Origin: Paludibacteraceae bacterium
Lineage (GTDB): Bacteria > Bacteroidota > Bacteroidia > Bacteroidales > Paludibacteraceae
DNA length: 36,965 nt
NCBI GenBank assembly: GCA_017470795.1
Contig: JAFUXZ010000020.1
Location: forward strand, 1 to 36,965
Direction: 5' to 3'
Part shown: in pieces, positions 15,887 through 31,513 of the stretch
Position numbering within the stretch: the first letter of the stretch is position 1
Layout of the letters: the number at the start of each line of letters is the position of its first letter
The notes under the pieces: generated by a model
Database searches by the model: none
Told to the model about the DNA's origin: nothing
Seen by the model: the letters and a program-made list of their open reading frames with translations, nothing else
Position numbers and translations under genes: made by a program

Positions 15887-16084
15887 CCCTCCGCCCTGCA
15901 TGACACACTGCCAGCCTTGCACCGCCCCCGCACCGCCGTCCCTCCCACAGTGCCGGCATGCCGTGCTCCTCTCTTGTCTTAAGCCGGACAGACAGCAGCC
16001 CCGTCAGTCCATATTATATAATGTCTGCTCCTCAACAAAATCTGAGGGCCGATGCCCGATGATTGTTCATTCAAAAAAATGTCC

Positions 16085-16093
16085 TATCTTTGC
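16085..16093 (+). promoter_or_regulatory. -7 box for tRNA-Ser
   Basis: TATCTTTGC with a TTG at 16063-16065 gives a spacing of 19 bases. The mature tRNA begins at 16116, so a short 5' leader would be removed by RNase P. Confidence 0.72.
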
Positions 16094-16115
16094 GCCCCGA
16101 AAGCGACCAACATCC

Positions 16116-16200
16116 GGAGAGTTGGCTGAGTGGTCGATAGCGGCGGTCTTGAAAACCGTTGAACGGCAACGTTCCGGGGGTTCGAATCCCTCACTCTCCG
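16116..16200 (+). tRNA. tRNA-Ser (TGA)
   Basis: An 85-base class II tRNA with a long variable arm. The acceptor stem GGAGAGT/ACTCTCC is perfect and the discriminator is G (16200), as required by seryl-tRNA synthetase. Anticodon TGA lies at 16150-16152 in the loop CTTGAAA. CCA is not encoded. Its last 16 bases and the downstream hairpin are duplicated 84 bases further on. Confidence 0.95.
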
Positions 16201-16323
16201 CAAGAATAAAGCGAGGCTACCGTCAGGTGGTCTCGCTCTGATTATCAGGTGAGGGTTCGTCGACAGACAATCCCTCACTCTCCGCAAAAATAAAGCGAGG
16301 CTACCGCTAGGTGGTCTCGCTCT
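16185..16323 (+). repeat. Duplicated tRNA-Ser 3' end plus terminator hairpin
   Basis: Two 55-base copies, 16185-16239 and 16269-16323, match at 52 of 55 positions with a period of 84. Each contains the last 16 bases of tRNA-Ser, a short A-rich linker and the downstream hairpin. In front of copy 2, GAGGGTTCG (16251-16259) resembles the T-arm of the real tRNA (GGGGGTTCG), but 9 extra bases separate it from AATCCCTC. Confidence 0.9.
16210..16237 (+). terminator. First hairpin after tRNA-Ser (no T-tract)
   Basis: Stem AGCGAG/CTCGCT (16210-16215 with 16232-16237) with partial inner pairing. It is followed by CTGATTATC, not a T-run, so it probably terminates poorly. Confidence 0.5.
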
Positions 16324-16330
16324 TTCCTTT
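16294..16330 (+). terminator. Second hairpin after tRNA-Ser, with T-rich flank
   Basis: The duplicate stem AGCGAG/CTCGCT (16294-16299 with 16316-16321) is followed by CTTTCCTTT. It is the more likely end of the tRNA-Ser transcript, which would then include the duplicated tRNA tail. Confidence 0.6.
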
Positions 16331-16413
16331 ACTAACCCCTGCACAGAACCTAAGGAAAAACGGGCGTCAGCAACCGGAATAACATTTTTGACCAGAAAAA
16401 AATATCGATAAAA

Positions 16414-16446
16414 TTTGCACATCTCGGAAACGCTCCGTATCTTTGC
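16414..16446 (+). promoter_or_regulatory. Promoter for the greA leader
   Basis: TTTG (16414-16417) and TATCTTTGC (16438-16446) with a 20-base spacer form the best full promoter match in the window. Transcription should begin near 16452, about 215 bases before greA. Confidence 0.8.
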
Positions 16447-16499
16447 TCGCGAAACAGATAAAATTTTTCATAGTTAAGGTTTAGGTTAAAAAATGATGG

Positions 16500-16535
16500 C
16501 GTTGGGTGGCTGGGAAGTTGCCCAACGTGTTTTTT
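16500..16535 (+). terminator. First intrinsic terminator in the greA leader
   Basis: An 11-bp stem (16500-16510 with 16517-16527), whose loop-proximal part contains three G-T wobbles, has a 6-base loop and is followed by TGTTTTTT. It meets all the usual criteria for intrinsic termination and lies 50 bases after the predicted start site. Confidence 0.8.
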
Positions 16536-16599
16536 GGCCTTTACGACGGCAAAGGAAAGAACAAAGAAAAAAACAACATAACATCGGCCAAACAGCCTG

Positions 16600-16643
16600 C
16601 AAGAGTTCCTGCGAGAAAACGGAATTCTTGTTGTTTTCTGTTT
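16600..16643 (+). terminator. Second terminator-like hairpin in the greA leader
   Basis: A 10-bp stem with one G-T wobble (16600-16609 with 16621-16630) has an 11-base loop and is followed by TTGTTTTCTGTTT (10 T in 13). It lies 25 bases before the greA ATG. The stem is AT-richer and weaker than the first. Confidence 0.6.
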
Positions 16644-16667
16644 GCATCATAAATCTTCTGAAGAAAT

Positions 16668-17138
16668 ATGGCAGTAATCTACATGACAGCCGAAGGGCTT
16701 AAGAAACTACATGAAGAACTCTCTGAAATGGAGAGCGTTCAGCGTCCGGCTATCTCACGCGCCATTGCCGAAGCACGCGACAAGGGCGACTTATCGGAGA
16801 ATGCCGAATACGATGCTGCACGTGAGGCACAGGGTCTGCTTGAGATGAAAATCGCGCAGCTGAAAGACAAGATTGCCAACGTACGCATCATTGACGAATC
16901 GCGCATCAAGACTGACGAAGTGCAGATTCTCACCAAAGTCAGAATCCGCAATACCAAGAACAACGCCCAGATGACCTACACCATCGTGTCAGAAGGCGAG
17001 GCCAACTTCAAAGAAGGCCGCCTGTCCGTCACCACCCCGATTGCAAAAGCACTGCTCGGCAAGAAAGTCGGCGACAAGGTTGAGGTGGTTGTTCCGGCAG
17101 GCAAGATGGAGTTCGAAATCCTCGACATATCCATCTGA
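16668..17138 (+). CDS. greA: Transcription elongation factor GreA
   Basis: GreA enters the secondary channel of RNA polymerase and stimulates cleavage of backtracked transcripts. The 156-residue length is standard. The N-terminal coiled coil (about residues 1-75) carries the catalytic tip, seen as DLSENAEYDAAREAQ. The C-terminal FKBP-like domain follows (KVGDKVEVVVPAGKMEFEIL). The start MAVIYMTAEGLKKLHEEL is the family N-terminus. It is the first protein gene after a 215-base leader with two terminator-like hairpins, which suggests that GreA level is set by premature termination. Confidence 0.97.
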   Translation: MAVIYMTAEGLKKLHEELSEMESVQRPAISRAIAEARDKGDLSENAEYDAAREAQGLLEMKIAQLKDKIANVRIIDESRIKTDEVQILTKVRIRNTKNNAQMTYTIVSEGEANFKEGRLSVTTPIAKALLGKKVGDKVEVVVPAGKMEFEILDISI

Positions 17139-24844: not shown

Positions 24845-26824
<1,980 letters not shown>

Positions 26825-26887: not shown

Positions 26888-27449
26888 CACATTTTCGCCC
26901 GTCTGTGATTCGGGGTGTGACGGCCTTCAGCCGGTAAAAAACGGGAAACTTCGCCACAGCGGCTGAAAACGGCTCTGACGGCATTTGTGTCCGCCGTGTT
27001 TTTTGTCGATTTTTCTGCGATGCGCTCAGAACGGCTTATTTTGCGTCGTTTTACGTCGCACAGCGGCAGAAAACATGCCCCGGCTCCTGCGCCGGAAGCG
27101 CTGACAGGACAGATGCCTGCCGGTGAGACGCCGCCGACAGCCCCGCCCGAGCGTAATCCCTCCTGCCTGCCCGCCGCCACGGGCTCCAACACCGCACAAC
27201 GCATCCGCCTGCAGCACTCCGGCAGCAGCATGCCGCCCCATGCATCACACACACCCACCGCCACCGGCCACGCACCCGCAAAAGCCGTCCCGCCGACCGT
27301 AGCCGACAGCCACGGCCTCCGGTAAGCCTTATGCAGCATCGCACCGCAAATCGGCAACATACGGCCAAAAATCGATGCACGCACCAGACGTCCGACCGGA
27401 CAAACAGCATTTATGACCGACAACAGAAACACCCTATGTCAAAAAAGCG
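26888..27449. other. Gene-free GC-rich spacer
   Basis: The space between the divergent gyrB and secreted-protein promoters is about 560 bases with no supported gene. A minus frame of 185 codons (26875-27432) runs across the gyrB promoter and is Arg/Gly/Ala/Cys rich without motifs. Blocks GGTGAGACGCCGCC (near 27121) and GGCTCCA...GCACAA..CATCC (near 27181) resemble parts of the 14198-14597 spacer. Confidence 0.55.
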
Positions 27450-27458
27450 TACCTTTGC
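27450..27458 (+). promoter_or_regulatory. -7 box for the 990-residue secreted protein
   Basis: TACCTTTGC is a full match; the predicted start near 27464 gives a leader of about 74 bases. Confidence 0.65.
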
Positions 27459-27537
27459 CGCTGATTATAACTAACATGCAGTAGTTTGGTCATCTGACAA
27501 GGACGCCTGCCACTGCATACCAAAAACAGCGAAAGAT

Positions 27538-30510
27538 ATGAGCAAAATGCAAACCTCGATGTTCAGCATCTGCCGATTCAAAGTCCTCCTGCTCGCACTT
27601 GTGGCTCTCACCACCCTCACGGCTCAGGCAGAGTGTTATACATTCAATCAAACGAGAGAAGCGGATAAGTTTACATTAAGAAACCAAGAAAAAAAACTCG
27701 TCGCTGATTCATATAAAGATTCTATCATCACTCCGGGTAAGTTGCTGCGTTTCAAATTAACATGTCTGGATAGCAGAGCAAAAAGTAATGGCTTCTCGTT
27801 CAAAGTCTATCAGGTCGTAAACGAAGAAAAGCTAGAAATTCTGTCTGTTACTCTAAACGAAAGCATTGCTCTCGCGTCCAACAGCAACAAAGACGGAGAC
27901 GGTAAATATAAGGACTTCAACCAATACGAGATTCCCATCTCACCAGATGCTACCAATATAGTCTTCTACACCAACACAACAGGAAGTGGCTTGTTTTCCA
28001 CTAATGGGGGGAATATACAAGTCTTCGATTTCCAAATTGTCATGGATGATGAGCCACGCATATTCCCTTCGTCCAGCAACTTGTTTTTCGATGCAAATCA
28101 GGAAGAGAGCAGCCAGGAAATAACTTTTGACTATTCTCAAACAGGGTTGATTAGTGTAACGAGCAACAATCCTGCGTTCAGCATATCTCAATCTGTGTAC
28201 AACACCTCCGGTAATTGCTCCGGACGCGACAACCAACTGACCATAACCTACCGACCCTCTTTAAGCGATGCTACGACTGGAGAGATAACACTGCATGCCG
28301 AAAACGGTTTAGATGAGACAATTTTTGTTCAAGGGCTGTATTGTGGTCTCTTGGTAGACGAACCGGATGAATTCGCAATAGAAACATCAGGCTCAGCACA
28401 TAAAGACAAAACAATCTCATGGAATTCGCCTGCGGCCAGACTTTCATTTGACTTTTGGCCTGGTGGCGGTTCTTCTGGTATGTGTTATGTGTATGCATAC
28501 GAATCGAATGACTGTTCCGGAACAGGCGTAGAAGTTTTCAGATTTAATGCCACTCTTGGACAAGGATATAAACAAGGCGCATGGAACAACAACGCATGTA
28601 ACATCGATATTACCGGGAAAGGATATCACAGCATAAAAATCAGTTCGGGTAGTGGCGTAGGATATAAGTGTATCCGCAATATAAAGGTCTCTCCCGACGT
28701 GTACTTTACAACCGACTCAACAAAGTACGAACTTATCACCTACACGGGAACGCAATTTGATCGTTGGCTGATACTCGATTATGCAAATCATCCGGAATTG
28801 GAAGTTAGCCATACGGGCAGTCTGGTCAAAATAGAAGGAACTGACAGGTTGAGTGTCGGTGAGGGATGCGGAACTTTCGAAACAAAAACCATTCACATAT
28901 CCGGTGAGGTAGCATTTGAAGAAGGGGTACAGAAAGATACCGTCACAATATCAGAAGAAGGCAAGCGGTTTATGTCGATTCCAATCACTGTTCTTGTCAC
29001 CAAGCGCGAACAAGCCTTGGCCTGGACGCAGAATCTGGCGGAAACGGTGAGCATCGTTGACACGCTGACACTTACAGACGCGGTAGCAACATCGGGACTG
29101 ACCGCAACATTCTCGTCAGAAGATGCAGGAGTGCATGTTGATGGCAATCGGGTATATTTCAGCGATTATGGCACATTTGACCTGCAGGCAGACCAGAAAG
29201 GCGACAACTTCTACGCTGCGGCAGAGAGCGTGACGAAAACCATCACCGTCCTGCCCAACGACCAAGCCGACCTGACACGCTTCTCCATCGAAGGATTCAG
29301 TTCGTCAGTCGACCCGACAGACGGATCTGAGACCATCATCCCCTCTTCACAGCAGATCAACATCATGGAGTCGGTCATCAACTTCACCACCTCCGCGTAT
29401 GCCACTGTCAAGATTGGCTCAGACGACATCAGCGACGGCGGGCAGTTTGCCGTCATGAGCCGCTCGACCTTCGACCCCTCGACCCGCATCTACACGCTCC
29501 CGACCATCAGCGTGACCTCACAGGACGGCACCAAAACCCAGACCTACACCATCCGTCTGCAGTTACAGCCGCGCAGCACCGCCTTCCTCTTCGACCGCAA
29601 CGTCGACAAGAACTATCAGTCCACGCTGCTCTACAAGGCGGCCAAGGACTACTACGGCGACGCCCTCAACGATGTAGACATCCTATGCGAGGAGGTCAAG
29701 GCAGCCGAGAAAGCACAGGAAATCGTGCAGTGGTATGACGTCATCATCATGCCGCACCTGTATGACGGACGCATCGGGGAGGTCTACCGCCAGCTGTCCA
29801 CATCGCTCGACGGCATGGAGCGCGTGCTCTGCCTGCAGTACGAACTGATCAACGGGCAGTACAGCAGCTACGGCTGGCCGCAGAGCGACGACAACACCAT
29901 CGGTTCGCAAGACTACCTCACGCGCATCACCGGAGAAGGCGTCGACTACAGCAAGTACCGCCTCTTTGACCAACTGCCATTCGTAGACGACAAGCTTCAG
30001 CTGGCCGAAGGCAGCGTCAAAACCATCAACTGCAATGACGACAACTGGATTCGCCGCACGGCAGAAGGCAGCATCTATGAGCAGCACAACTGGGGCTACA
30101 AGAAAGTGCTCGTGATAGGCATCGACGTTGAAGCCAACGCCCCGTCAGCATCAGTGCCGGAACCGACGCCGGCTCCGCGCCGCGTCACGCGGCAGACAAC
30201 CGCCCTCTCGCCGGTTGAACAACTGCTGGCCAATACGTTCACCTATCTGGAAAAGGACACCTACTACGACGAGGTTTCGGGCAAGGCCACCGTGCTGCCG
30301 GAGGTCTACCAAGTGCGTACGCTCCCCGGCATCAGCGATATCATGATGCAGGGAACGCTGCTGCTCAACCCCACCGGCAAGCCGCTGCGCATCTACAACG
30401 CGTCGGGCAGACTCCTCACACAGACGCTGGGCAACGTAGACCTGACGGGCTATCCGACCGGACTGTACTTCATCTGCGCACCCGACGGGCAGATCAAAAT
30501 CCTGCGTTGA
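27538..30510 (+). CDS. Large secreted multidomain protein with type IX secretion-like tail
   Basis: The 990-residue product has a signal peptide (hydrophobic residues 14-31, cut after AQA). Residues from about 32 to 485 are beta-rich with several cysteines and no domain I can name. Residues about 488-575 form an Ig-like segment (ALAWTQNLAETVSIVDTL). Residues about 578-680 look like a DUF5018/cadherin-like sandwich. Residues about 680-870 are an unidentified alpha/beta domain (TAFLFDRNVDKNYQ, WYDVIIMPHLYDG). After a Pro-rich linker, the last 50 residues (PLRIYNASGRLL, PTGLYFICAPDG, IKILR end) resemble a type IX sorting domain. The 5' half is AT-rich and the 3' half GC-rich. It is monocistronic, with its own promoter and terminator. 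Confidence 0.85.
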   Translation: MSKMQTSMFSICRFKVLLLALVALTTLTAQAECYTFNQTREADKFTLRNQEKKLVADSYKDSIITPGKLLRFKLTCLDSRAKSNGFSFKVYQVVNEEKLEILSVTLNESIALASNSNKDGDGKYKDFNQYEIPISPDATNIVFYTNTTGSGLFSTNGGNIQVFDFQIVMDDEPRIFPSSSNLFFDANQEESSQEITFDYSQTGLISVTSNNPAFSISQSVYNTSGNCSGRDNQLTITYRPSLSDATTGEITLHAENGLDETIFVQGLYCGLLVDEPDEFAIETSGSAHKDKTISWNSPAARLSFDFWPGGGSSGMCYVYAYESNDCSGTGVEVFRFNATLGQGYKQGAWNNNACNIDITGKGYHSIKISSGSGVGYKCIRNIKVSPDVYFTTDSTKYELITYTGTQFDRWLILDYANHPELEVSHTGSLVKIEGTDRLSVGEGCGTFETKTIHISGEVAFEEGVQKDTVTISEEGKRFMSIPITVLVTKREQALAWTQNLAETVSIVDTLTLTDAVATSGLTATFSSEDAGVHVDGNRVYFSDYGTFDLQADQKGDNFYAAAESVTKTITVLPNDQADLTRFSIEGFSSSVDPTDGSETIIPSSQQINIMESVINFTTSAYATVKIGSDDISDGGQFAVMSRSTFDPSTRIYTLPTISVTSQDGTKTQTYTIRLQLQPRSTAFLFDRNVDKNYQSTLLYKAAKDYYGDALNDVDILCEEVKAAEKAQEIVQWYDVIIMPHLYDGRIGEVYRQLSTSLDGMERVLCLQYELINGQYSSYGWPQSDDNTIGSQDYLTRITGEGVDYSKYRLFDQLPFVDDKLQLAEGSVKTINCNDDNWIRRTAEGSIYEQHNWGYKKVLVIGIDVEANAPSASVPEPTPAPRRVTRQTTALSPVEQLLANTFTYLEKDTYYDEVSGKATVLPEVYQVRTLPGISDIMMQGTLLLNPTGKPLRIYNASGRLLTQTLGNVDLTGYPTGLYFICAPDGQIKILR

Positions 30511-30540: not shown

Positions 30541-30571
30541 CGAGACACTCTGCAGAGTGTCTCGCTCTTTT
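30541..30571 (+). terminator. Intrinsic terminator after the secreted-protein gene
   Basis: A perfect 24-base palindrome (30541-30564) folds into a 10-bp stem with loop TGCA and is followed by CTCTTTTA. It lies 30 bases after the stop and 52 bases before the proposed xerD start. Confidence 0.8.
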
Positions 30572-30622
30572 AGGCAGACAACCGCTCTTGGCATCAACAG
30601 ACCCACAAACCCACGCATCGCT

Positions 30623-31513
30623 GTGTCCTCCATCATCAACGAATACAAAGCCTACCTGGCGCTTGAAAAATCGCTCTCCGGCAACACGATAGAAGCCTAC
30701 ATGGCCGACTTGCAGAAGCTGACCGACTACTGTGCCGACCGTCAGATCGAACCCGTCAGTGCAAGCATGTCGGACATCGAGGACTTCGTATTCTGCCTCG
30801 GAAAACAGATGAACAATGCGCGTACGGAGGCCCGCATCATATCGGGAATACGGTCGTTCTACAAATTTTTGCTGTACACACGCCGTATTGAGGACGACCC
30901 AACGCGCCTGATTGATCTTCCCCGTCTCGGCATCCACCTGCCAGAGGTACTGACGCTCGACGAGATTAACCGGATGGTGTCCGCCATCGATCTGAGCCAT
31001 CCGCAAGGTCAGCGCAACCGCGCCATCATCGAGATGCTCTATGGTTCCGGACTGCGCGTGTCAGAGCTCGTCAGTCTGCGCCGTTCCGACATCTATCCGG
31101 ACGAGGGCTACATGCGTATCCTCGGCAAAGGCAGCAAGCAACGGCTGGTGCCAATATCTGGGGAGGCGCTCAAACGGCTTCGGCTCTGGGAGCAAGACCG
31201 TCAGCAGCTGGACATCAAGCCCGAATATGCAGACACAGAATTTCTCAACCGCTATGGCCGCAAGCTGACACGCGCCATGATCTTTACCATCGTCCGCCAG
31301 CTTGCGCGCGATGCAGGCATAGAGAAGACCATCAGTCCGCACACACTGCGTCACAGCTTCGCCACCCATCTGCTTCAGAACGGCGCAAATATCATGGCCA
31401 TCAGCGCGTTGCTTGGACATGAATCCGTCGGCACAACACAGATCTATACGCACCTGGATATTCGCGAGCTCCGCAACGAGATTCTGCGCTGTCACCCCAT
31501 GAACAAAACCTGA
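30623..31513 (+). CDS. xerD: Tyrosine recombinase XerD
   Basis: XerD with XerC resolves chromosome dimers at the dif site. The 296-residue protein has an N-terminal SAM-like DNA-binding domain (SIINEYKAYLALEKSLSGNTIEAY) and a catalytic domain with Arg145 (GSGLRVSELV), the lysine in GKGSKQR, HTLRHSFATHLL, LGHESVGTTQ and the nucleophile Tyr275 in IYTHLD. No ATG lies before the conserved N-terminus; the GTG at 30623 fits it, while a GTG at 30557 falls inside the upstream terminator hairpin. No clear promoter was found in the short gap. It is chromosomal housekeeping rather than a mobile-element integrase, judging by its close match to XerD and the lack of element genes nearby. Confidence 0.92.
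   Translation: MSSIINEYKAYLALEKSLSGNTIEAYMADLQKLTDYCADRQIEPVSASMSDIEDFVFCLGKQMNNARTEARIISGIRSFYKFLLYTRRIEDDPTRLIDLPRLGIHLPEVLTLDEINRMVSAIDLSHPQGQRNRAIIEMLYGSGLRVSELVSLRRSDIYPDEGYMRILGKGSKQRLVPISGEALKRLRLWEQDRQQLDIKPEYADTEFLNRYGRKLTRAMIFTIVRQLARDAGIEKTISPHTLRHSFATHLLQNGANIMAISALLGHESVGTTQIYTHLDIRELRNEILRCHPMNKT

Follow-up and report, generated by a model that had tools for sequence, protein, structure and literature searches.

An internal low-GC block in a secreted-protein gene of an uncultured Paludibacteraceae bacterium, probably acquired from a lower-GC lineage

How does a single gene come to carry two kinds of codon usage? The question is raised by an open reading frame (27538-30510, plus strand) of a Paludibacteraceae bacterium, intact over its full length of 990 codons, for which a preliminary description had reported a sharp composition break inside a secreted protein and had read it as replacement of the exposed N-terminal half by foreign DNA. 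The window, which is the whole stretch of DNA analysed here (36,965 nucleotides), comprises one entire contig (C111) of a 2.1 Mb bin of 269 contigs with an estimated contamination of 1.12%. The ORF is placed between gyrB (24845-26803, minus strand) and an xerD-like gene (30557-31513, plus strand), both named by reading. These flanking genes are ordinary, with GC3 of 0.64-0.76, and the closest named relatives of XerD come from rumen bins of Paludibacteraceae (61-62% identity). By direct reading of the sequence, a probable Bacteroidales promoter lies at 27445..27465 (plus strand), with a TAnnTTTGC-like -7 box at 27450-27458 that we take to be the promoter motif of this order. A stretch of 26-35 bases around this box recurs in several genomes of the family with 85-96% identity. 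Elsewhere in the window, the contig start (1-500) has an AT skew of 0.62, being rich in A and C and poor in T and G, and GC drops locally to 43-47% at 16001-16750, adjoining a tRNA-Ser gene (16116-16201).

Module borders of the protein, drawn by eye from an alignment and matches, follow the plus strand from a putative signal peptide with host-like codon use (codons 1-31, 27538..27630) to a low-GC block (residues 32-485, 27631..28992) comprising two sandwich-like module units and a choice-of-anchor-D/HYDIN-like module. An Ig-like (Big-type) domain of transitional composition comes next (residues 486-571, 28993..29250), followed by a module whose single relative is weak and belongs to another family (residues 572-672, 29251..29553). 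An orphan region, alpha/beta-looking by eye (residues 673-890, 29554..30207), precedes a Pro/Ser/Arg linker and a C-terminal tail resembling a sorting domain (residues 891-990, 30208..30510).

The break itself is real and large. The 60-base samples given earlier for 27661, 28561 and 29761 (19, 25 and 38 GC) were reproduced exactly, and the GC change point falls at 29003-29004, with 28938-29217 lying within 3 log units. The best single break in GC3 is at codon 547 (range 540-563, or 29155-29226), where GC3 rises from 0.46 to 0.81 with a log-likelihood gain of 69.1. As an own-genome control we used 65 ORFs of ≥400 codons from the window and 42 sampled stretches of the bin, 3 of which were masked and yielded no ORFs. 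The target break ranked first among the 65 (next 32.4, 27.1, and 14.3), and the lowest GC3 over 200 codons, 0.40, was also the target's. The preference for AGA, ATA and AAA noted previously for the first half was borne out in codons 32-485, where AGA/AGG account for 6 of 13 Arg codons (0.11 in the genome sample), ATA for 14 of 32 Ile codons (0.15), and AAA for 16 of 24 Lys codons (0.41). GC3 in the block is 0.36-0.47 per module, against 0.64-0.66 expected from the amino acids, and when the protein sequence is taken as given, the genome's own codon table yields z values of -5.5, -4.0, -6.4, and -4.4 for the four modules in residues 32-485. Because each of them is poor in GC3 given its amino acids, the shift is one of synonymous choice and not an amino-acid effect. 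The Ig-like domain has a GC3 of 0.59 (z -1.4).

One might attribute such a pattern to regional or gene-level variation of composition within one genome, caused by translation selection or mutation bias, with no recent transfer. GC3 does vary widely across contigs and genes of the bin, and smaller breaks occur in other ORFs, including those of Cas9 (32.4) and of a secreted protein of 2907 codons (27.1). However, the target break is twice the next largest and lies inside one ORF with ordinary genes on either side, and all 15 homologous ORFs examined for a shared composition shift lack a comparable break (largest 10.4). We therefore regard this explanation as distinctly unlikely.

The low-GC stretch is an internal block, with a host-like signal peptide ahead of it. 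Modelling a block bounded at codons 28 and 547 gained 74.1 log units, above the 69.1 of the single break. GC is 54% over the ORF's first 93 bases but 32% over the next 93, and 22 of the 31 signal-peptide codons end in G or C, more than the mean GC3 of the low block (0.43) would predict (P=0.0014), although with so few codons the statistics at this edge are limited. For the same codons, the own-sample table was second best of 20, the best being the genome's own GC-rich set. With three other-genome tables, the maximal foreign-like segment started at codons 33, 33, and 31 and ended at codons 474, 486, and 474, and its score was second among 160 own ORFs. Other tables delimited pieces within codons 194-346 (G247, G011, and G016), codons 31-346 (g22 genomes), or codons 33-547 (G018). 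The left edge is thus sharp, and the right edge is blurred over codons 474-563 (about 28960-29226) by the better-fitting measures. The earlier placement of the shift near residue 488 falls within this range, but the junction cannot be fixed there. Likewise, the idea of an atypical N-terminal half holds for the exposed region, whose best reading is foreign origin, but the atypical part is internal and codons 1-31 are host-like.

These edges also bear on the assembly. A chimera joining genes of two organisms would be conceivable in a metagenome bin of so many contigs with some estimated contamination, but it needs two in-frame junctions (about 27630 and 28960-29226) in an ORF that is unbroken throughout. 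No repeat linking the junctions was found, nor was any longer DNA copy of the target stretch elsewhere in the bin, where matches were short. A chimera is accordingly highly improbable.

Whether the Ig-like domain belongs to the block is less clear-cut. The own sample (-93.7) and the G018 table (-91.3) fit its codons almost equally well. Nevertheless, the domain directly follows the preceding module in homologs, and no second copy was found in the own genome at E≤1, which hints that it was imported together with the preceding modules.

Searched separately, the two halves of the protein have different relatives. Matches to the whole protein at E≤0.001 occur in 113 family genomes out of 358, a count that includes the window's own genome; those listed concerned mostly the Ig-like domain, the module before it or the tail. 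The best ones (G018, G267, G268, and G069) cover residues 283-572 at about 30% identity and are long proteins with sorting-like tails; homologs of residues from about 187, 211 or 277 to 571 are same-family proteins. The best match by score lies in G018, the closest genus by GyrB (80%). For the C-terminal part (query 572-931), one other genome of 344 gave a match, confined to residues 573-673 (E 2.8e-5, 40% identity), and residues 673-930 had no relatives in the 344 genomes of the order, with up to five candidates per genome scored; nor had residues 673-890 any in the sampled loci. In a search of 395 genomes of the phylum, the matches listed besides the window's own lay within residues 456-584; two candidates per genome were scored there, as in the protein and DNA searches of the 358 genomes, and absence in these searches is weaker than it looks. 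No relative was found by a whole-protein search of named genome contigs or among viral contigs and plasmids, and PHROGs and PDB sequence searches returned chance-level matches only. At E≤1e-8, neither gyrB and xerD together nor the target was found in 12 gyrB (L102-L113) and 13 xerD (L089-L101) neighbourhoods of other genomes. A tree of residues 376-571 does not resolve the place of the target, whose branch is 2.01 long, and the C-terminal part yielded too few relatives to build one. At the DNA level, no long similarity was found in the 358 family genomes or the bin, the matches spanning about 18-51 bases. Among these short matches, a recurrent set corresponds to the promoter-like stretch around 27435-27474.

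Some homologs and one protein of the bin match NF012200 (best 2.8e-5), Big_3_5 (3.2e-4), and Big_2 (9.8e-4), models of choice-of-anchor-D and Big-type Ig domains of secreted proteins, whereas the target itself does not match these models at the thresholds used. The matches of its relatives suggest a role in adhesion or carbohydrate binding, and profile searches found no catalytic family in the target. Single-sequence structure predictions of target regions had pLDDT values of 31.9 and 33.2 (32 in the orphan region), too low for use.

The C-terminal part, which had been described as native-looking, is host-like in codon use, but its GC3 exceeds the genome expectation. Its values of 0.81-0.82 compare with 0.66-0.68 expected for the same amino acids in the genome sample, with z values of +3.4, +4.7, and +2.9 for its three parts. 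Nonetheless, the own sample fits codons 572-990 better than all 18 other-genome tables, and the best of 20 tables was that of the bin's GC-rich secreted genes and contig C244. To call this part host-like is therefore fair; to say that the C-terminal modules and tail stayed native goes further than a composition signal in a region with almost no known relatives. Contigs of the bin span a GC3 of about 0.5 to 0.87, and ORFs on other contigs (L127, L129, and L135) have a GC3 of 0.77-0.81. On contig C244, all five ORFs listed for L073 have a GC3 of 0.82-0.87, and this contig could be a high-GC region or a contaminant of the bin. One ORF there (L073 5737-8823, minus strand) encodes a secreted-looking protein with a choice-of-anchor-D match that resembles target residues 201-252.

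The high GC3 of this part (z 2.9-4.7), the lack of relatives for residues 673-930 and the presence of family relatives for the N-terminal modules, the best of them in the closest genus, would also suit the reverse history, in which an older gene of low-GC modules gained, by fusion, a GC-rich C-terminal part specific to the lineage, and the host-like look of the signal peptide is due to chance. We consider this history rather unlikely, as the C-terminal part is fitted best by the own sample and still more by the own GC-rich secreted set, GC3 reaches 0.77-0.84 in four more of the bin's long ORFs of secreted type, and it is the N-terminal block that forms the low extreme of the genome sample.

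Our preferred reading, which we hold to be probable, is that the gene is a mosaic in which modules donated by a lower-GC Bacteroidales lineage sit as a block, with a host signal peptide ahead of them and, behind them, a C-terminal part of host-like codon use that ends in a probable type IX sorting tail. Tables of lower-GC relatives outperform the host sample on codons 32-485 by as much as about 50 log units, and 16 of 18 other-genome tables explain these codons better than the own sample does. Together with the absence of the break from the homologs examined, this argues that the exposed N-terminal region is of foreign origin. The different distribution of the C-terminal part and the N-terminal modules also supports the mosaic reading. 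It is weakened by the absence of a long donor DNA match in the family genomes (matches of about 20-51 bases), by nearest relatives that are only about 30% identical and the long branch, and by a C-terminal part that is GC-rich for the genome, together with the wide spread of GC3 among contigs of the bin. Moreover, as the best match lies in the closest genus, homology stays compatible with descent of the modules within the lineage. No alleles of the target locating the junction were found, the genus being represented by one genome. Of the earlier proposal of replacement by foreign DNA, the foreign origin stands as the best reading, and telling replacement from fusion or insertion would take alleles.

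If the mosaic reading is right, an in-frame recombination would have placed the module block (residues about 32-485, perhaps to 571) after a host-type signal peptide and before a C-terminal part of host type. Expression would then depend on the host promoter, and the host signal peptide would take the protein across the inner membrane by the Sec path; the tail would hand it to the type IX secretion system for delivery to the surface, and the imported beta-sandwich modules may form the exposed binding region. The N-terminus has, by eye, a hydrophobic stretch ending in AQA, with putative cleavage after AQA. On the tail, TIGR04183 scored 16.3 bits with hmmscan and 19.3 bits in a genome search, below the cut-off of 23, and Pfam PF18962 scored 13.1 against a cut-off of 27. 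Residues 933-989 resemble G000:C5 (E 6.8e-5), a protein of the own genome with a sorting tail above the cut-off (24.1 bits), and tail homologs occur in the own genome and in the family. The tail is, as judged from such similarity, a probable type IX sorting tail. The bin encodes SprA, in two contig-end pieces above cut-off (2268.6 and 483.4 bits), and has 29 sorting-tail matches, 18 of them above cut-off. GC-rich C-termini are not a general trait of sorting-tail proteins: the mean difference was 0.011 in 25 tail-like ORFs, a class set by a crude pattern that includes the target, and 0.004 in 40 others.

Lateral transfer within genes is established: fragments of genes recombine between lineages, and the breakpoints can fall within genes (Chan et al. 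2009, PMC2639706; PMC3212841). The former study reports that, in annotated gene sets, domain-encoding regions are avoided by breakpoints, but it concludes that domains are not modules of transfer. The target is one composition-based case of this well-known process. It would likewise involve recombination of fragments, but the published mosaics were identified from orthologous sets and phylogeny, whereas the target is known by composition and distribution. Long modular proteins with putative T9SS secretion have been described from uncultured rumen Bacteroidetes (PMC5831590); the target shares their long, modular build and putative T9SS secretion, but those proteins are cellulases. Literature screened by title and start of abstract yielded no description of composition breaks in T9SS cargo, and such accounts may exist elsewhere. 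The gene offers a clear example of how uncultured gut Bacteroidales may remodel secreted modular surface proteins, with a foreign-looking stretch that starts at the signal-peptide boundary and leaves the export parts in place. Should alleles confirm a swap, the gene would be a system in which to test how T9SS cargo exchange modules. A broader and more doubtful generalization is that secreted proteins of this lineage keep a constant export signal and sorting tail while the display modules that directly follow the cleavage site move between species as an exchangeable cassette. Under such a scheme, codons 38-178 of L137 and codons 156-621 of L123 would be further cases.

Several other ORFs of the bin have unusual composition. 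The L137 and L123 segments are atypical internal segments of sorting-tail ORFs. The top foreign-like score of the 160 ORFs belongs to a lipoprotein-like ORF of 304 codons (L066:7132-8043, plus strand, contig C140), which is foreign-like throughout with a GC3 of 0.30. The 2907-codon protein (L117:437-9157, plus strand, contig C27) carries a sorting tail, and its GC3 rises from 0.57 to 0.75 at codon 2451. The Cas9 gene (cas_Csn1, 528 bits; L058:1698-5174, minus strand, contig C20), whose GC3 break is the second largest in the sample, has a GC3 of 0.86 before codon 553 and 0.66 after it, and is possibly a mosaic gene.
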